Of a DNA stretch of 64,000 nt, positions 21,085 through 43,487 are shown piece by piece; position 1 is the first letter of the stretch; each line of letters begins with the position of its first letter. Under the pieces are notes generated by a model. The model was given only the letters and a program-made list of their open reading frames with translations, did not search any database and had not been told where the DNA came from. The position numbers and the translations under genes are program-made. Source of the DNA: Allopusillimonas soli (GTDB taxonomy: Bacteria; Pseudomonadota; Gammaproteobacteria; Burkholderiales; Burkholderiaceae_B); the NCBI RefSeq assembly GCF_004153445.1, contig NZ_SDQC01000001.1:1-64000 (forward strand), in the 5' to 3' direction.

Positions 21085-22581
21085 CTAGCGGGGCACAAAG
21101 AAACTGGTTTTCTCCAGGACATGGATCTCGCCGCCTTGCGGGTAGTGGCCGGCGCCAGAGAGCGCGATATTGTGCAGCCCCGGCGGCGCCTGGGCGGCGG
21201 GCGCCTTCACTACCACCGGAATCAGTGTGTTGGAGGCCGCCTCCAGCCTCACGATCGACGACCCGGTGCCGGTATCCTCGACAGAAAGACCGGGCATGCC
21301 CACTGCGGACAGTTCAAGCACAAGATCCGACTCGGCGGTATTGATGAACTGCAGGCGGTAGACGTTTTCTATGATCCCCCCTGGCACCTCGCGGCCCAGC
21401 GTGCCGCGATCCCGGATGATGTCCATGCGCAGGGTGCTGCGCGTGCTCAATGACACGACGAAGGCAACGGCGATGGCCAGCAAGATGGCCCAGTAGATCA
21501 GGACGCGCGGTCTCAGAAGCCGCCGTCGCGCCTGTTGTTGCGTCAGTCTTTGTGTGATGGCACGCCCGGAGGTGTAGCGTATGAGCCCCTGGTCGTAACC
21601 CATCTTGTCCATGACCTGGTCGCAGGCATCCACACACGCGCCGCAACCGATGCACATGTATTGCAGTCCATCCCGGATATCGATGCCGGTGGGGCAGACC
21701 TGGACACACAGGCTGCAGTCCACGCAGTCCCCCATGCCGGCTTCCTTGTGGTCTATCTTGCGCGACCGGCCGCCGCGCGGCTCACCGCGTACATGATCAT
21801 AGGTGACCACAAAGGTGTCGTCGTCGACCATGACGCTCTGGAAGCGCGCGTACGGGCACATGTACTTGCACACCGCTTCGCGCATGAATCCGGCATTGCC
21901 CCAGGTTGCGAAGGAGTAGAACACCATCCAGAACCATTGCCACGGCCCCAGCGTGAAAGTGATCAGCCCCATGCCCAGCTCGCGAATCGGGGCGAAATAG
22001 CCTATGAAGGTCGAGCCGGTCCACCACGCGATGAATATCCAGACGATGTGCTTGGTGGCTTTGATGCGCAACTTGCGCCAGCTCCAGGGTGCTTCGTCCA
22101 AACGGATGCGCTTGATCCGGTCTCCTTCGATCTTGCGTTCAACCCACATGAAAATCTCGGTGTACACCGTCTGCGGACAGGCATAGCCGCAAAACAGGCG
22201 GCCAGCCATGGCGGTAAACAGAAACAGTGACAAGGCCGAAAGCACCAGCAGGACCGCAAGATAGATGACATCCTGCGGCCAGAGCACCATGCCGAAGATG
22301 TAGAACTTGCGCGCGGCCAGATCGAACAACACGGCCTGGCGGCCGTTCCATTGCAGCCAAGGCAGGCCATAGAAGACGGCCTGGGTGACAAACACCATGA
22401 TGATGCGCCAGTGCGCATAGATGCCGGAGACCGAACGCGGGTAGATCTTGCTGCGCACATCGGAAAGCGCCTGCTCTACCTGAGGAGAGGGGCCGCCCTT
22501 GCCCAGCCGGGGTGGCTGCCATACGGGAGTGGGCGCCTTGTCCTCCCCGCGCGCTGGCCGGGTGATCGATTCGCTTTTCAT
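21085..22581 (-). CDS. ccoG: Cytochrome c oxidase accessory protein CcoG (copper reductase)
   Basis: 498 residues from ATG 22581; a start at 22623 or 22635 would overlap ccoP. Several membrane helices in the first half enclose CGYACPQTVY and CKYMCPYARF. The centre carries two 4Fe-4S ferredoxin motifs, CVDCSLCVQVCP and CIGCGACVDACD. A last membrane helix near 385-405 is followed by a periplasmic immunoglobulin-like domain. In Rhodobacter CcoG reduces Cu(II) to Cu(I) for cbb3 assembly and works with CcoI. Finding an intact CcoG next to a CcoI without ATPase domains is notable. Confidence 0.92.
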   Translation of the reverse strand: MKSESITRPARGEDKAPTPVWQPPRLGKGGPSPQVEQALSDVRSKIYPRSVSGIYAHWRIIMVFVTQAVFYGLPWLQWNGRQAVLFDLAARKFYIFGMVLWPQDVIYLAVLLVLSALSLFLFTAMAGRLFCGYACPQTVYTEIFMWVERKIEGDRIKRIRLDEAPWSWRKLRIKATKHIVWIFIAWWTGSTFIGYFAPIRELGMGLITFTLGPWQWFWMVFYSFATWGNAGFMREAVCKYMCPYARFQSVMVDDDTFVVTYDHVRGEPRGGRSRKIDHKEAGMGDCVDCSLCVQVCPTGIDIRDGLQYMCIGCGACVDACDQVMDKMGYDQGLIRYTSGRAITQRLTQQQARRRLLRPRVLIYWAILLAIAVAFVVSLSTRSTLRMDIIRDRGTLGREVPGGIIENVYRLQFINTAESDLVLELSAVGMPGLSVEDTGTGSSIVRLEAASNTLIPVVVKAPAAQAPPGLHNIALSGAGHYPQGGEIHVLEKTSFFVPR

Positions 22582-22603
22582 GTCGTGCGCCGCCCGTCGT
22601 GAA

Positions 22604-23524
22604 TTATCGTCCGCCTTCGCCATCGCGGCGGCCAAGGCCCCAGACCCAGGCGGTCAACATGCGGATCTGATCCTCGGTAAGGACGCCCTCCTGCGCCGGC
22701 ATGATGTTCTCCCGCCCTTTCAGGATGGTCTCCACGATGGCCGCCTCCGAGCTGCCGTAGAGCCAGACGCGGTCGGTCAGATTCGGCGCGCCGACGGCTT
22801 GGTTGCCCTTGCCGTCCACGCCATGGCAGGCAACGCAGAAATTCTGAAATCCTTCCTTGCCAAGCACGACGCGCAAGGGATCGCTGGCCAGCCCCGAGAG
22901 CGAGCGCACATACTGCGCGATGTTGCCCGCCTCATCGGGCTTGATGGCTGCGGACCAGGCGGGCATCATGCCGTGGCGGCCCTTGGCAATGGTCTGCATG
23001 ATTTGCGCAGGCTCGCCGCCATGCAGCCAGTCGTTATCCGTGAGGTTGGGAAAACTGGCCGCGCCGCGCGCATCGGAACCATGGCATTGCGCGCAATTAT
23101 TGAGAAACAGCCGCTGCCCGATCTGGCGTGCGCTCTCATCCCCGGCGATGGCCTCAATGGGCATTTCGCGGTAGCGCGCATAGAGCGGCTCGATCTGCCG
23201 CCGCAAGGCCTCTTGCTGATCCTTGACCTGCTGTGCGCTGGTATAGCCCAGCGTCCCCCGGTAATCACCCAGGCCGGGGTAGAGAAAAAGAATGCCCAGA
23301 GCAATCACGCACAGGCCGATGTAAAAGACGGTCCACCAGCGCGGCACCGGCGTGTTCAGTTCAGTCAGGTCGCCATCCCATACGTGGCCGGTGTCCTGAG
23401 CCTGGGGCACGGTGCGGCCCAGCCAGGCGCGCTGGGTAAACAAAAGCCAGAGACAGAACGCAATACCGCCGAGCGTGATGATGGCGATGAAATAGCTCCA
23501 GAAGCCGCTGACAAAATGGCTCAT
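22604..23524 (-). CDS. ccoP: cbb3-type cytochrome c oxidase subunit III, dihaem CcoP
   Basis: 306 residues. Two N-terminal membrane helices (about 8-30 and 64-85) are followed by two cytochrome c domains, with haem motifs CAQCH and CVACH in the periplasm. Methionine ligands are likely in HGMMPAW and ENIMPAQ. CcoP takes electrons from soluble cytochrome c or bc1 and passes them to CcoO. The ATG at 23524 overlaps the ccoQ stop (ATGA), so the two are translationally coupled. Confidence 0.96.
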   Translation of the reverse strand: MSHFVSGFWSYFIAIITLGGIAFCLWLLFTQRAWLGRTVPQAQDTGHVWDGDLTELNTPVPRWWTVFYIGLCVIALGILFLYPGLGDYRGTLGYTSAQQVKDQQEALRRQIEPLYARYREMPIEAIAGDESARQIGQRLFLNNCAQCHGSDARGAASFPNLTDNDWLHGGEPAQIMQTIAKGRHGMMPAWSAAIKPDEAGNIAQYVRSLSGLASDPLRVVLGKEGFQNFCVACHGVDGKGNQAVGAPNLTDRVWLYGSSEAAIVETILKGRENIMPAQEGVLTEDQIRMLTAWVWGLGRRDGEGGR

Positions 23525-23706
23525 GACGGGTTTCCTTCATTCTTCTTGCGCTGGGTATCGGACACAGGCTCGTCCGGCAGTGCGAAAGGCAGCATGGATG
23601 CTTCGTGATTGGCCCTGGCTCGCCCTGCGGACCAGGCCCACCAGACTATGCCCAGAAAAGTGGCAAGGGCCAGCAAAGTGGCAACGCCGTTTACGATTGC
23701 CATCAT
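23521..23706 (-). CDS. ccoQ: cbb3-type oxidase subunit CcoQ/FixQ
   Basis: 61 residues from the ATG at 23706, which overlaps the ccoO stop as TGATG; a second ATG follows at 23703. A single membrane helix spans residues 4-26 (VNGVATLLALATFLGIVWWAW), then a charged tail with FALPDEPVSD. CcoQ stabilises the association of CcoP with the core complex. Position between ccoO and ccoP is the conserved place. Confidence 0.9.
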   Translation of the reverse strand: MMAIVNGVATLLALATFLGIVWWAWSAGRARANHEASMLPFALPDEPVSDTQRKKNEGNPS

Positions 23707-24365
23707 CACAACGCCCCCTTAACCACAGCCCGAGCCGCCTCATCACGGCCCGCCACGCCCAGGCCTTGCAGGAAGGCCACCAGCGCGTCTTCTTCGGTCT
23801 GCCCCTTCAGGGCCTCGGGCGCCTTCTCGATTTGCTCGTCGATATAAGGCACGCCCAGCTTGCGCAGCGCGCGCATGCGCTCGCGCACGTCCGTCTTCTC
23901 GACAGAGCGGTCCTGCAGCCAGGGATAGGCCGGCATGTTCGACTCCTTGACGACGTCACGCGGATTGCGCAGATGCACGCGATGCCAGTCATCCGAGTAG
24001 CGTCCGCCCACTCGCGCCAGATCGGGTCCGGTGCGCTTGGAGCCCCATAGAAAGGGATGGTCGTAACGCGACTCGCCTGCCAATGAATACGGACCGTAAC
24101 GCTGCACTTCCGAACTGAGCATGCGTATTTGCTGCGAATGGCAGCTGACACATCCTTCTCGGATGTAGACGTCCCGCCCGACAAGGCGCAAGGGCTCGTA
24201 GGGCTGCACGCCTTGCACCGGGGCGGTGGTCGAATGCTGAAAGAACAGCGGCACGATCTGCACCAGCCCTGCGAAGGATATGACGAGTATGCTCAGGATG
24301 ATGAGCAGGGCCACATTGGTTTCTATCAGCTTGTGGGAAAAGCCGGTGGTCTTGCGATTGGCCAT
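23706..24365 (-). CDS. ccoO: cbb3-type cytochrome c oxidase subunit II, monohaem CcoO
   Basis: 219 residues from ATG 24365, preceded by GAGGAG; a longer reading to 24422 lies inside ccoN and is not family-like. An N-terminal membrane helix (about 15-37) is followed by a single cytochrome c domain with haem motif [11 protein letters not shown] and methionine ligand in [11 protein letters not shown]. CcoO passes electrons from CcoP to the haem b/copper site of CcoN. Ten bases separate it from ccoN. Confidence 0.96.
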
Positions 24366-24375
24366 CTTGTTCTCC

Positions 24376-25860
24376 TCAAGCAGCGGCAGGCGCCGGGACG
24401 GCGTAGTCCGGATCGCGCGCATCGGGGCTGTATAGCGGGACAGCGGGATTCACTTTGGACTGGCCCCGCACAGTGAGCCAGGTATTGAAAGCCATGAGAC
24501 ACATGCCGGACAGGAAAAGCAGGCCGCCGGCCAGCCGTATGGCATAGAACGGATACGTTGCCTTCACCGCCTCGACAAAGCTGTAGGTGAGTGTGCCGTC
24601 CGGTTCCGTAGCACGCCACATCAGGCCTTGCATGACGCCAGCAATCCACATCGAGGCGATGTAGAACACCACGCCCAGCGTGGCGACCCAGAAGTGCAAC
24701 TCGACCAGCTGCATGTTTGCCATGGATTTGCGGCCATATAGCCGGGGAATCATGTAGTACAGCGACCCGAAGGTGATCATCGCCACCCACCCCAGCGCGC
24801 CGGAATGCACGTGGCCCACGGTCCAGTCGGTATAGTGCGACAGCGCGTTGACGGTCCGGATCGACATCATCGACCCCTCGAATGTGGACATGCCATAGAA
24901 AGACAGCGCCACCACCAGAAACTTCAAAATGGGGTCGGTTCGCAGCTTGTGCCAGGCGCCCGAGAGCGTCATGATGCCATTGATCATGCCGCCCCAGGAT
25001 GGCGCCAGCAGTATCAGCGACAACGCCATGCCCAGAGACTGCGTCCAGTCGGGCAAGGAGGTGTACAGCAGGTGGTGCGGCCCCGCCCACATATAGGTGA
25101 AGGCCAGCGCCCAGAAATGAACGATGGACAGGCGGTATGAATAAATGGGCCGCTCGGCCTGCTTGGGCACGAAGTAGTACATCATGCCCAGGAAGCTTGT
25201 GGTCAGGAAAAAGCCGACGGCGTTATGGCCGTACCACCACTGCACCATGGCATCCTGCACGCCTGCGTAGATGGAATATGATTTCCATAGCGACACCGGC
25301 AGCTCCAGATTATTGAAGATGTGCAGTACGGCGATAGTCAGGATGTACGAGCCAAAAAACCAGTTGGCAACATAGATGTGACGCACGCGCCGCCGGGCAA
25401 TGGTGCCGAAGAATACGACGGCGTAAGCCACCCATACCAGCGCTATGAGAATGTCCAGCGGCCATTCGAGCTCTGCGTATTCCTTTGTGCTGGTATAGCC
25501 CAGGGGCAGCGTGATGACCGCACCCACCAGTACGGCCTGCCAGCCCCAGAATGTAAATGCGGCCAGCTTGTCGGAAAAAAGCCGTGCCTGACAGGTACGC
25601 TGCACGACATAATAGGATGTGGCAAACAATGCGCTGCCGCCGAAAGCGAAGATGACGCCATTGGTGTGCAGCGGACGCAGCCTCCCGTAGCTGAGCCAGG
25701 GCGTGTTGAAGTTCAGCTCGGGCCAGATGAGCTGCGCGGCGATCAGTACGCCAACCGCCATGCCGACAACTCCCCAGAATACGGTTGCAATAGTGAATTG
25801 CCGCACAACGCCGTAGTTGAAGATTTCGACCTGCCCCGCGGCAGTATCGGACGCGTTCAT
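24376..25860 (-). CDS. ccoN: cbb3-type cytochrome c oxidase subunit I CcoN
   Basis: 494 residues from ATG 25860 ([10 protein letters not shown]), with GAGGGG six bases upstream; a start at 25890 is possible. Twelve membrane helices are expected. Haem and copper ligands are visible in [37 protein letters not shown] and [12 protein letters not shown]. It is the catalytic subunit that reduces oxygen to water with high affinity and pumps protons. Part of the operon preceded by ccoI-like and ccoS genes. Confidence 0.97.
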
Positions 25861-25899: not shown

Positions 25900-26130
25900 T
25901 CAGGCTTGCTGTTGGTCTGGGTTGCAATGGGCCGCCTCATGCACGCACGTGCAAGGCGGTGCGGTACCTGCCGGCTGCCTGTGCGTGCTGTCGTCGTCCA
26001 GGAGAATGCCTCCACCATCGCCGCCCGCCTCGTCGAATTGCCCAGCGAAGATGGCCCACCAGAAAGCGATGCCTATCAGTGCAGCCATCAGAACGGAAAT
26101 CGGCAGAAGCAAAAGCAGGGAGGCGGTCAT
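25900..26130 (-). CDS. ccoS: cbb3 oxidase maturation protein CcoS
   Basis: 76 residues. The N-terminal part is a clear CcoS: a membrane helix (ASLLLLLPISVLMAALIGIA) then FWWAIFAGQFDEAGG and ILLDDDS. The C-terminal tail is unusual: about 25 residues after ILLDDD contain CTCVHEAAHC, with three cysteines and two histidines, a possible metal-binding patch. CcoS is needed for haem/copper insertion into CcoN. The gene starts three bases after the ccoI-like stop and lies 39 bases before ccoN. Confidence 0.85.
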   Translation of the reverse strand: MTASLLLLLPISVLMAALIGIAFWWAIFAGQFDEAGGDGGGILLDDDSTHRQPAGTAPPCTCVHEAAHCNPDQQQA

Positions 26131-26133
26131 GCT

Positions 26134-27099
26134 TCAGCTCCTGGCGGGCGCCACCGGCCAATGGACGGCGCAGATACGTGTCTCGCGCCTGAAAAAACGC
26201 CAAGCGTTGCCCGCGACGGCCAGCGAGGAAATCAGCATGGTGAGCGCGGCGACCCAGGGGGCCACCAATCCGGCCGCTGCCAGCGGTGTCATGAGCAAAT
26301 GCCAGGCTATTGATCCGTAAAGGTTTTGCCGGGCAACGACGCTCGCCGCAGCGGTGAGCGGGTGCACGTGCGCGGGCGCTGCATCGCCCTGCACAGACAA
26401 GGTTGCATGAACGGCCGCCGTCACCGTGGGCACGGCCATGGCCATGGCACAGGGGCAACTCATGACCAGCAGCGCCACCACGACGGCGATCGCGCGTTCG
26501 GGCGCATACAGCATCCAGACGCCGCCGGCCGCCAGCGCCAGGAGCAACTGGATCGCGACAAACCACAAGGCCAGTCGATTGGCGTGAGCGGACATCACAT
26601 CGCGAAAGCGCTCAATGGCCTGAACGTCTGTACCAACGAAAATCGATTGGCGCGCGCACAGAGCCAGATAGCGCGCGGTAAGCAGAAAGGCCACGAACAT
26701 GGTGACCGAATCGAAATACACCTCCCCCCGCCCCGCCAGTGTGGCGTGCGCGCTGGGGATGAAGGCGGCGGCAATGCCCAGGGCCACAGGCACATCCATG
26801 CCGACGCGGCCACGCTTCAATTGGGCAAATGCCCCGCGCCATACGGGCGAGGCGCAGTAAAGCGCAACCGGTAGGGTCAACGCGAGGCTGACCCAGTTCA
26901 TCATGTAAATGGCCTGATCGAGCAGTGCGGGATTATCCGTACCCATACCTGCGGAGCGCAGATAACCCGGGAACGCAAACATCATGACCTGCATCATGCC
27001 GAGCCAAGCCAGCCCCAGGCGCGCAAGCAGGCGACGCCGGGCCATCCTGTCCGCTACGGATAGGATTTGTGGTGTGGAAAATAGAGAATACGGGCGCAT
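26134..27099 (-). CDS. CcoI-like P-type ATPase membrane domain without cytoplasmic domains
   Basis: 321 residues. Segments of a FixI/CcoI copper ATPase are clear: RRLLARLGLAWLGMMQVMM (helix 1), MDVPVALGIAAAF (helix 3), RGEVYFDSVTMFVAFLL (helix 4), the metal-site motif SCPCAMAMAVPT in helix 6 and ARQNLYGSIAWHLLMTPLAA running into helices 7 and 8. CcoI proteins are normally about 750-830 residues. Missing here are the N-terminal HMA metal-binding domain, the actuator domain with TGE (only about 25 residues join helices 4 and 5), and the phosphorylation and nucleotide domains with DKTGT and GDGxND (about 25-30 residues join helices 6 and 7). The frame is open with no stops and sits first in the cco operon, so it is not an obvious decaying pseudogene. 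It cannot hydrolyse ATP in the usual way. The ATG at 27099 has no ribosome site and may be leaderless. Confidence 0.85.
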   Translation of the reverse strand: MRPYSLFSTPQILSVADRMARRRLLARLGLAWLGMMQVMMFAFPGYLRSAGMGTDNPALLDQAIYMMNWVSLALTLPVALYCASPVWRGAFAQLKRGRVGMDVPVALGIAAAFIPSAHATLAGRGEVYFDSVTMFVAFLLTARYLALCARQSIFVGTDVQAIERFRDVMSAHANRLALWFVAIQLLLALAAGGVWMLYAPERAIAVVVALLVMSCPCAMAMAVPTVTAAVHATLSVQGDAAPAHVHPLTAAASVVARQNLYGSIAWHLLMTPLAAAGLVAPWVAALTMLISSLAVAGNAWRFFRRETRICAVHWPVAPARS

Positions 27100-27105
27100 G
27101 CCCGG

Positions 27106-27147
27106 ACTATAGATGTCCGGGTTTACCCGAGTATTGATTTAAATCAA
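27106..27147 (-). promoter_or_regulatory. FNR-activated promoter of the cco operon
   Basis: A perfect FNR box, TTGATTTAAATCAA, at 27134-27147. On the minus strand a -10 element TATAGT lies at 27111-27106, six bases before the ATG at 27099. With a start at 27099 the box is centred at -41.5, the exact class II activator position. The -10 overlaps a small hairpin, CCCGGAC (27101-27107) with GTCCGGG (27115-27121). Confidence 0.8.
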
Positions 27148-43454: not shown

Positions 43455-43487
43455 ATTATTTAATACAAAAATATTGATGTCAATCAA
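43455..43487 (-). promoter_or_regulatory. paaA promoter with an overlapping FNR box
   Basis: On the minus strand TTGACA (43483-43478), 17 bases, AATAAT (43460-43455): a near-consensus sigma70 promoter. The -35 lies entirely inside a perfect FNR box, TTGAT-N4-ATCAA, at 43474-43487. Bound FNR would be centred near -32 and block RNA polymerase. The 141-base paaA-paaX gap must also contain the PaaX operator, which I could not locate with confidence. Confidence 0.65.

Follow-up and report, generated by a model that had tools for sequence, protein, structure and literature searches.

The closest described system is CcoI (FixI), a CopA2-type P1B-ATPase that serves the maturation of cbb3 oxidase. Passages of one report (PMC8475189) describe CcoI as the central ATP-driven hub for copper delivery to the oxidase. 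In these passages, the R. capsulatus protein moves Cu(I) using ATP; a strain without ccoI has under 10% of cbb3 activity, or ~30% with copper, and a CPC mutant has 2%, or ~10% with copper. In C. jejuni, according to PMC8267372, cbb3 activity disappears when ccoI or ccoS is lost, and copper brings part of it back. We recognised no description of a CcoI without its cytoplasmic domains, or of any membrane-only P-type ATPase, in the openly accessible journal literature that was covered.

We analyzed a stretch of 64,000 nucleotides from Allopusillimonas soli, hereafter the window, in which a cco operon on the minus strand begins with a domainless ccoI, here called mini-ccoI. The features of the operon and its promoter are the following.

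27134..27147, minus strand: FNR box TTGATTTAAATCAA, perfect, centred at -41.5 relative to the A of the ATG
27106..27111, minus strand: TATAGT, a -10-like element six bases ahead of the ATG, which would imply a leaderless or near-leaderless mRNA
26134..27099, minus strand: mini-ccoI, 321 aa from the ATG, with eight TM helices, CPC at 215–217, H267, M288 and S291
25900..26130, minus strand: ccoS, 3 bases past the mini-ccoI stop; over the cut-off of PF03597 / TIGR00847
24376..25890, minus strand: ccoN, the catalytic CuB subunit; TIGR00780, 765.6 bits, over cut-off
23706..24422, minus strand: ccoO ORF, by conserved synteny; judged by eye, the true start is probably ~18 codons downstream
23521..23709, minus strand: ccoQ, by synteny; PF05545 below cut-off (19.9 of 29 bits)
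22604..23524, minus strand: ccoP, by conserved synteny and position; two CxxCH haem motifs
21085..22635, minus strand: ccoG, cupric reductase family; TIGR02745, 500.6 bits

A preliminary description of the sequence had placed the gene first in an FNR-box cco operon together with ccoS and ccoG. This was borne out: curated cut-offs were passed and the FNR box upstream is perfect. The slot of mini-ccoI is that of the full-length gene in Cupriavidus and Ralstonia, where the order is ccoI-S-N-O-Q-P-G.

The frame of 321 residues had been read as carrying CcoI helices 1–8 and the CPC motif, with which the ORF call, the alignment and the eight helices predicted by AlphaFold agreed. By Pfam, alignment and predicted structure, the actuator, P, N and metal-binding N-terminal domains are absent, and the motif search and Pfam confirmed that the window's gene has no TGE, DKTGT, GDGxND or HMA domain. 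Pfam recognised the tail of E1-E2_ATPase alone (residues 163–232, 36 bits), with no match to the HAD hydrolase or HMA domains, and the NCBIfam Cu-ATPase models gave partial matches far under their cut-off (62 of 397 bits for TIGR01511). When the PDB was searched by sequence, residues 68–150 and 172–227 matched CopA as separate pieces, the actuator domain being missing between them.

For comparison, we used full-length CcoI from Cupriavidus, Ralstonia and their relatives, 32 sequences of which entered the residue counts. The alignment shows that three blocks are gone: the N-terminus, the actuator domain and the P/N domains. The lost N-terminus comprises ~190 residues, an approximate figure, since the start codons of the full-length frames are uncurated. 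Between the alignment anchors, the actuator region is reduced to 24–41 residues, compared to 125–132 in full-length CcoI, and the P/N region to 31–39, compared to 215–341, in keeping with the short stubs noted at these places beforehand. The idea that the stretch HVHPLT is a relic of the HP motif is not supported, because H246 and P247 are variable in the 58 sequences and HVHPLT falls, in the alignment, in the lead-in to TM7 rather than in the N domain.

To see how far the form extends, the best 80 loci were taken from a scan of a collection of species genomes. In 58 of them (L010–L067) the gene has CPC, with DKTGT in 0/58 and GDGxND in 0/58; the remaining 22 come from other Burkholderiales and from Rhodocyclaceae and hold CcoI in full length or as cut pieces. 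Counting the window, CPC is present in 59/59 sequences. A TGE string occurs somewhere in the open frame at 4 of the 58 loci, and no HAD domain is among the Pfam matches listed for the 58 aligned domainless members. The domainless proteins measure 318–341 aa in 58 of 59 sequences, L063 being cut by a contig end; because each open frame was defined from one stop to the next, intactness is not a separate test. Apart from nine MAGs labelled Burkholderiaceae or beta proteobacterium only, the 58 loci carry labels of Alcaligenaceae or its genera; Achromobacter, Bordetella and Pusillimonas are among the record labels of carriers. The form is thus conserved in related genomes, where all 58 loci are equally domainless, and the deletions are neither confined to this genome nor an assembly error, dozens of species having full open frames.

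Within the GTDB family of the window, the profile finds a match at E 1e-20 in 202 of 268 genomes, 184 of them with the domainless form and 18 with full-length CcoI. A genome was classed as domainless by a contiguous match of ~300 positions among the matches listed, or otherwise by an E-value of 1e-118 or better, the best full-length match being at 1.6e-50. Four genomes with partial, interrupted or long-linker matches (G066, G083, G243, G251) were rechecked and are counted within the 184. In G066, the match (L104, 3532–4263) is without model positions 124–171 and lies near a contig end, and may represent a shorter form or an assembly fault. One genome, G238 (L103, on G238:C9), has a full-length CcoI operon though the other matching genomes of its genus are domainless; this CcoI forms a long separate branch in the tree and may be a retained ancestor or a horizontal replacement. 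Outside the family, no domainless CcoI was found among the matches listed for 399 genomes of the order, nor at E 1e-40 in 369 genomes of the class, a search that a distant one could escape.

A full-length CcoI was sought in the window's genome and none was detected at E 1e-20; nor did any stand beside the domainless form among the matches listed for carriers at that threshold. G041 has a second profile match, outside the matches listed. The divergent full-length CcoI of genus g22 scores 1e-21 to 1e-27 only, and two genomes of this genus (G153, G156) have ccoN, yet no profile match at E 1e-20. Because these forms score near or beyond the threshold, a divergent second copy of CcoI could escape. 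PF12156, the N-terminal metal-binding domain of CcoI, occurs in 8 of the 268 family genomes, all of them carriers of full-length CcoI, and in 0 of the 184 domainless genomes. It is a weak test for a hidden full-length copy, because 10 of the 18 full-length genomes are without it too.

A tree of 93 sequences over 301 aligned positions, with the two CopAs of the window's genome as outgroup, placed mini-CcoI within CcoI, not CopA. The 58 domainless proteins (the window's and 57 others) form one clade with support 100 on a long stem of 0.79 substitutions per site, and this clade groups with full-length CcoI of Ralstonia with support 85. In the 25 closest pairs, dN/dS (NG86) was 0.045–0.299; these pairs do not include the gene of the window, and the purifying selection is that found in other species. 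For the 428 pairs whose dS was below 1.5, the median was 0.28, a value inflated by saturation. The core had a pN/pS ratio of 0.36, both former-domain linkers one of 0.79 and the tail one of 0.92. The core is constrained, while the two linkers and the tail are nearly free; selection on the helices is evident from this constraint and from dN/dS well below 1. A pseudogene was ruled out by dN/dS together with the open frames of 318–341 aa. The gene in the window is a CcoI of which the eight membrane helices are left. It is neither a pseudogene nor the product of a local deletion. As evolutionary facts we consider it firmly established that mini-CcoI is real, family-wide and under selection, that it descends from a P-type ATPase and that it has no ATPase part.

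In G083 (4.04 Mb, probably B. pertussis, a name that we assigned by inference), mini-ccoI is interrupted by an element of ~1.05 kb (L102, 8050–9108) with 31-nt inverted ends, which we take to be IS481. The ccoN gene of this genome lies in two frames, and ccoN of B. pertussis is given as a pseudogene in a section of PMC13038864. Because the G083 ccoN is also broken, matching the published gene, the decay of mini-ccoI here accompanies loss of the oxidase. The broken G083 gene would suit a reading of mini-CcoI as a decaying remnant, or as an annotation or assembly artefact, but this is extremely improbable given that full open frames occur in dozens of species under purifying selection and that ccoN is broken in G083 as well.

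AlphaFold, run with the 58 sequences, predicted eight long helices and an amphipathic helix at 84–95 (mean pLDDT 85.9, pTM 0.80), the latter corresponding to the "platform" of CopA. By VIA-align, the predicted fold is that of the P1B-ATPase membrane domain, with Z 17.1–23.0. The best match was ATP7B (7si7; Z 23.0, rmsd 5.1, 282 residues), along with 4bbj (Z 21.9; 3.8, 272), 7r0g (Z 21.6; 3.8, 285), a Zn P1B-ATPase (4umw, Z 19.5) and two ATP7B mutant entries (Z 17.1–17.6). The next P-type ATPase was a Ca pump at Z 8.6, amid unrelated helical proteins. Foldseek put the same Cu-ATPases on top, with moderate query TM scores of 0.45–0.53 and three matches at E 0.001 or better.

The CPC, TM7 YN and TM8 M/S positions are the copper ligands in CopA. 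In TM8, M288 and S291 are invariant in the domainless proteins (58/58) and also in full-length CcoI. In TM7, H267 is present in 58/58 domainless proteins, where full-length CcoI has Asn (32/32); the preceding residue is W (56/58) or F (2/58) rather than the Y of full-length CcoI (31/32). Both CopAs of the window's genome keep TM7 YN. Further switches between mini- and full-length CcoI occur at L30, N68, P115 and G262.

The columns of M101, E146 and D174 form the cytosolic copper entrance in L. pneumophila CopA, and both CopAs of the window's genome have the entrance residues in the same alignment columns. In the domainless proteins the entrance is mostly kept: M101 is found in 58/58, and E146 in 53/58, compared to 30/32 in full-length CcoI (p 1.0). 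For D174 the counts are 43/58 and 31/32 (p 0.008, kinship ignored). The window's own mini-CcoI is without the usual E146 and D174. The kept entrance residues would fit entry of copper from the cytosol. With the path M101, D/E130, CPC, M288 and S291 retained and the gating domains gone, mini-CcoI could also be a passive channel or carrier that lets Cu(I) run down its gradient across or into the membrane, for example from the periplasm towards CcoN. We regard this as improbable: a free copper leak would be expected to be toxic, and the change of Asn to His should make the site tighter.

Among the 184 domainless carriers, 181 have a ccoN match, counting the broken or partial ccoN of G047, G074 and G083. 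True ccoN was judged by E-value; nine matches at 1e-71 to 1e-80 were set aside, and ccoN was kept for G034 (1.6e-80), G047 and G213. In the three carriers without a match (G019, G066, G251), mini-ccoI lies at a contig end: in G019 the contig stops shortly past the gene, with the beginning of ccoN visible; in G066 it stops inside the gene; and in G251 the mini-ccoI match starts at contig base 3. All 18 full-length genomes have ccoN, and seven genomes have ccoN with neither form of CcoI (G034, G096, G130, G153, G156, G166, G168). The co-occurrence of mini-ccoI and ccoN has a Fisher p of 2e-45, with kinship ignored; it is phylogenetically non-independent. In G047 (L106), mini-ccoI is intact and ccoN is split over several frames, which either speaks against a strict coupling of the two genes, or is recent, or is a sequencing fault. 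The co-occurrence, like the unchanged operon slot, would also suit a copper-independent scaffold that holds CcoS and CcoN in assembly. Such a role has little probability in our view, as CPC, H267, M288 and S291, the positions of the copper ligands, do not vary.

Since CcoI of R. capsulatus transports Cu(I) with ATP, its replacement by a protein that does not pump requires another exporter. The window's genome encodes two full Cu-ATPases, one with an HMA domain and one with YHS/HMBD domains. The two DKTGT-coding sites of this genome both lie within them, and for this genome a split ATPase with its catalytic domain in trans was rejected, there being no further such site. We searched 24 small or special genomes, 22 of which have a Cu-ATPase over cut-off. 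In G180, one of the two under it, a full-span match reaches 373.6 of 397 bits, and the other, G067, has a completeness of 78%. None of the 24 is therefore clearly a domainless carrier without a full Cu-ATPase, a finding that would have spoken against any partner. The Cu-ATPases retained by the small genomes fall into groups 32–48% identical; in G217, G218, G221 and G077 the sole one is of a group with 32–36% identity to the sole one of G163, and their neighbourhoods differ. At five g39 loci (L117, L118, L119, L121, L123), a full Cu-ATPase gene adjoins a Sco gene. A gene with a multicopper-oxidase domain also lies beside the Cu-ATPase in L117 and L119, the two examined by Pfam, and in L121 a PCuAC gene is its neighbour. 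Each of the 34 genomes checked, 24 domainless ones and 10 with full-length CcoI, has both Sco and PCuAC. With ordinary Cu-ATPases and Sco/PCuAC present, copper has other ways into the periplasm, and pumping by mini-CcoI is not required.

The presence of these full Cu-ATPases, together with the predicted platform helix and the persistence of most entrance residues, would also be consistent with mini-CcoI acting as a regulatory or structural subunit in a hetero-oligomer with a full CopA-type Cu-ATPase, directing copper to cbb3 oxidase while the ATP work is done in trans. We consider this unlikely. The retained Cu-ATPase varies from genome to genome, which speaks against one fixed partner, and P-type ATPases normally function as single chains.

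The FNR box is a frequent feature of the locus: 51 of 59 loci have a box that matches 9/10 or better and sits between -41.5 and -45.5 relative to the ATG, and a Shine–Dalgarno-like word was found at 1 of 59. In a class II FNR promoter with this spacing, transcription would start at the ATG or within ~4 bases of it, and judging from the box positions, the cco operon mRNA is probably leaderless. The box lies 57.5–59.5 bases from a candidate start at 13/13 Cupriavidus loci, and 44.5–45.5 bases from one candidate start at three Ralstonia loci with full-length CcoI. Because of this similar spacing at the Ralstonia loci, the short distance may predate the loss of the domains. A second FNR-like site, TTGATGTCAATCAA, is present in the window at 43474–43487, and inverted repeats (CGGGT/ACCCG and CCCGGAC/GTCCGGG) were seen by eye around the -10 element, at 27100–27131.

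The preliminary description had proposed an ATP-independent membrane component, and this is the natural reading, because a conserved, selected, domainless CcoI keeps the first cco slot behind an FNR box. More specifically, we hold it to be reasonably probable that mini-CcoI serves the assembly of cbb3 oxidase as a copper-binding membrane factor that works without ATP, and that other Cu-ATPases export the copper. We infer from the comparative data that it binds copper, serves cbb3 maturation and works independently of ATP in the cell, and the direction and source of the copper are proposed on the same basis. Points against this reading are the kept entrance residues, the need for another exporter, the intact mini-ccoI beside a broken ccoN in G047, the moderate Foldseek scores and the co-occurrence with ccoN, which would fit a scaffold as well. 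Mini-CcoI descends from CcoI, the Cu(I) P-type ATPase specific to cbb3, whose gene lost its three cytosolic parts in an ancestor of most Alcaligenaceae and kept its operon slot. Alone, mini-CcoI is incapable of ATP hydrolysis. The CPC cysteines, H267 in place of the Asn of the pump, and M288/S291 would hold Cu(I) within the helix bundle, and the protein, beside CcoS, would pass it to CuB of nascent CcoN, either directly or with periplasmic Sco/PCuAC. Whether a P-type ATPase has in this way become an ATP-free membrane metallochaperone for copper, in which a site retuned by the Asn-to-His change hands Cu(I) to CuB and which has replaced the pump in most of the family, we put forward tentatively, with not quite even confidence.

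Most genomes of the family have no pump in the operon, but its membrane half with an altered copper site. With only the membrane part in the pump's place, copper probably reaches the cbb3 oxidase by a way that has not been described. This raises the questions of whether the membrane domain of the pump has a second role, in copper hand-over or assembly, that is separable from ATP-driven transport, and of where the copper of CuB comes from. For structural work, mini-CcoI also provides a minimal Cu-ATPase membrane domain of natural origin.

Among known systems, CcoI/FixI is the nearest, sharing with mini-CcoI its descent, operon position, eight-helix membrane domain, CPC, the helix A motif MMQVMM and the TM8 M and S. 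Mini-CcoI differs in having ~320 residues instead of ~850, in being without the ATPase, actuator and metal-binding N-terminal domains, and in having WH for the TM7 YN. The P1B Cu(I) exporter CopA (3rfu, 4bbj, 7r0g) has the membrane fold in common with mini-CcoI (Z 21.5–21.9), whereas the latter is without the catalytic cycle and its gene has a different neighbourhood. The periplasmic chaperones Sco/SenC and PCuAC have folds unrelated to CcoI; what they would have in common with mini-CcoI is the proposed role, the ATP-free hand-over of copper to the oxidase. Soluble P-type ATPase-like HAD proteins, which consist of a catalytic domain without the membrane part, are likewise products of a P-type ATPase dismantled in evolution, but they are the reverse case of mini-CcoI.
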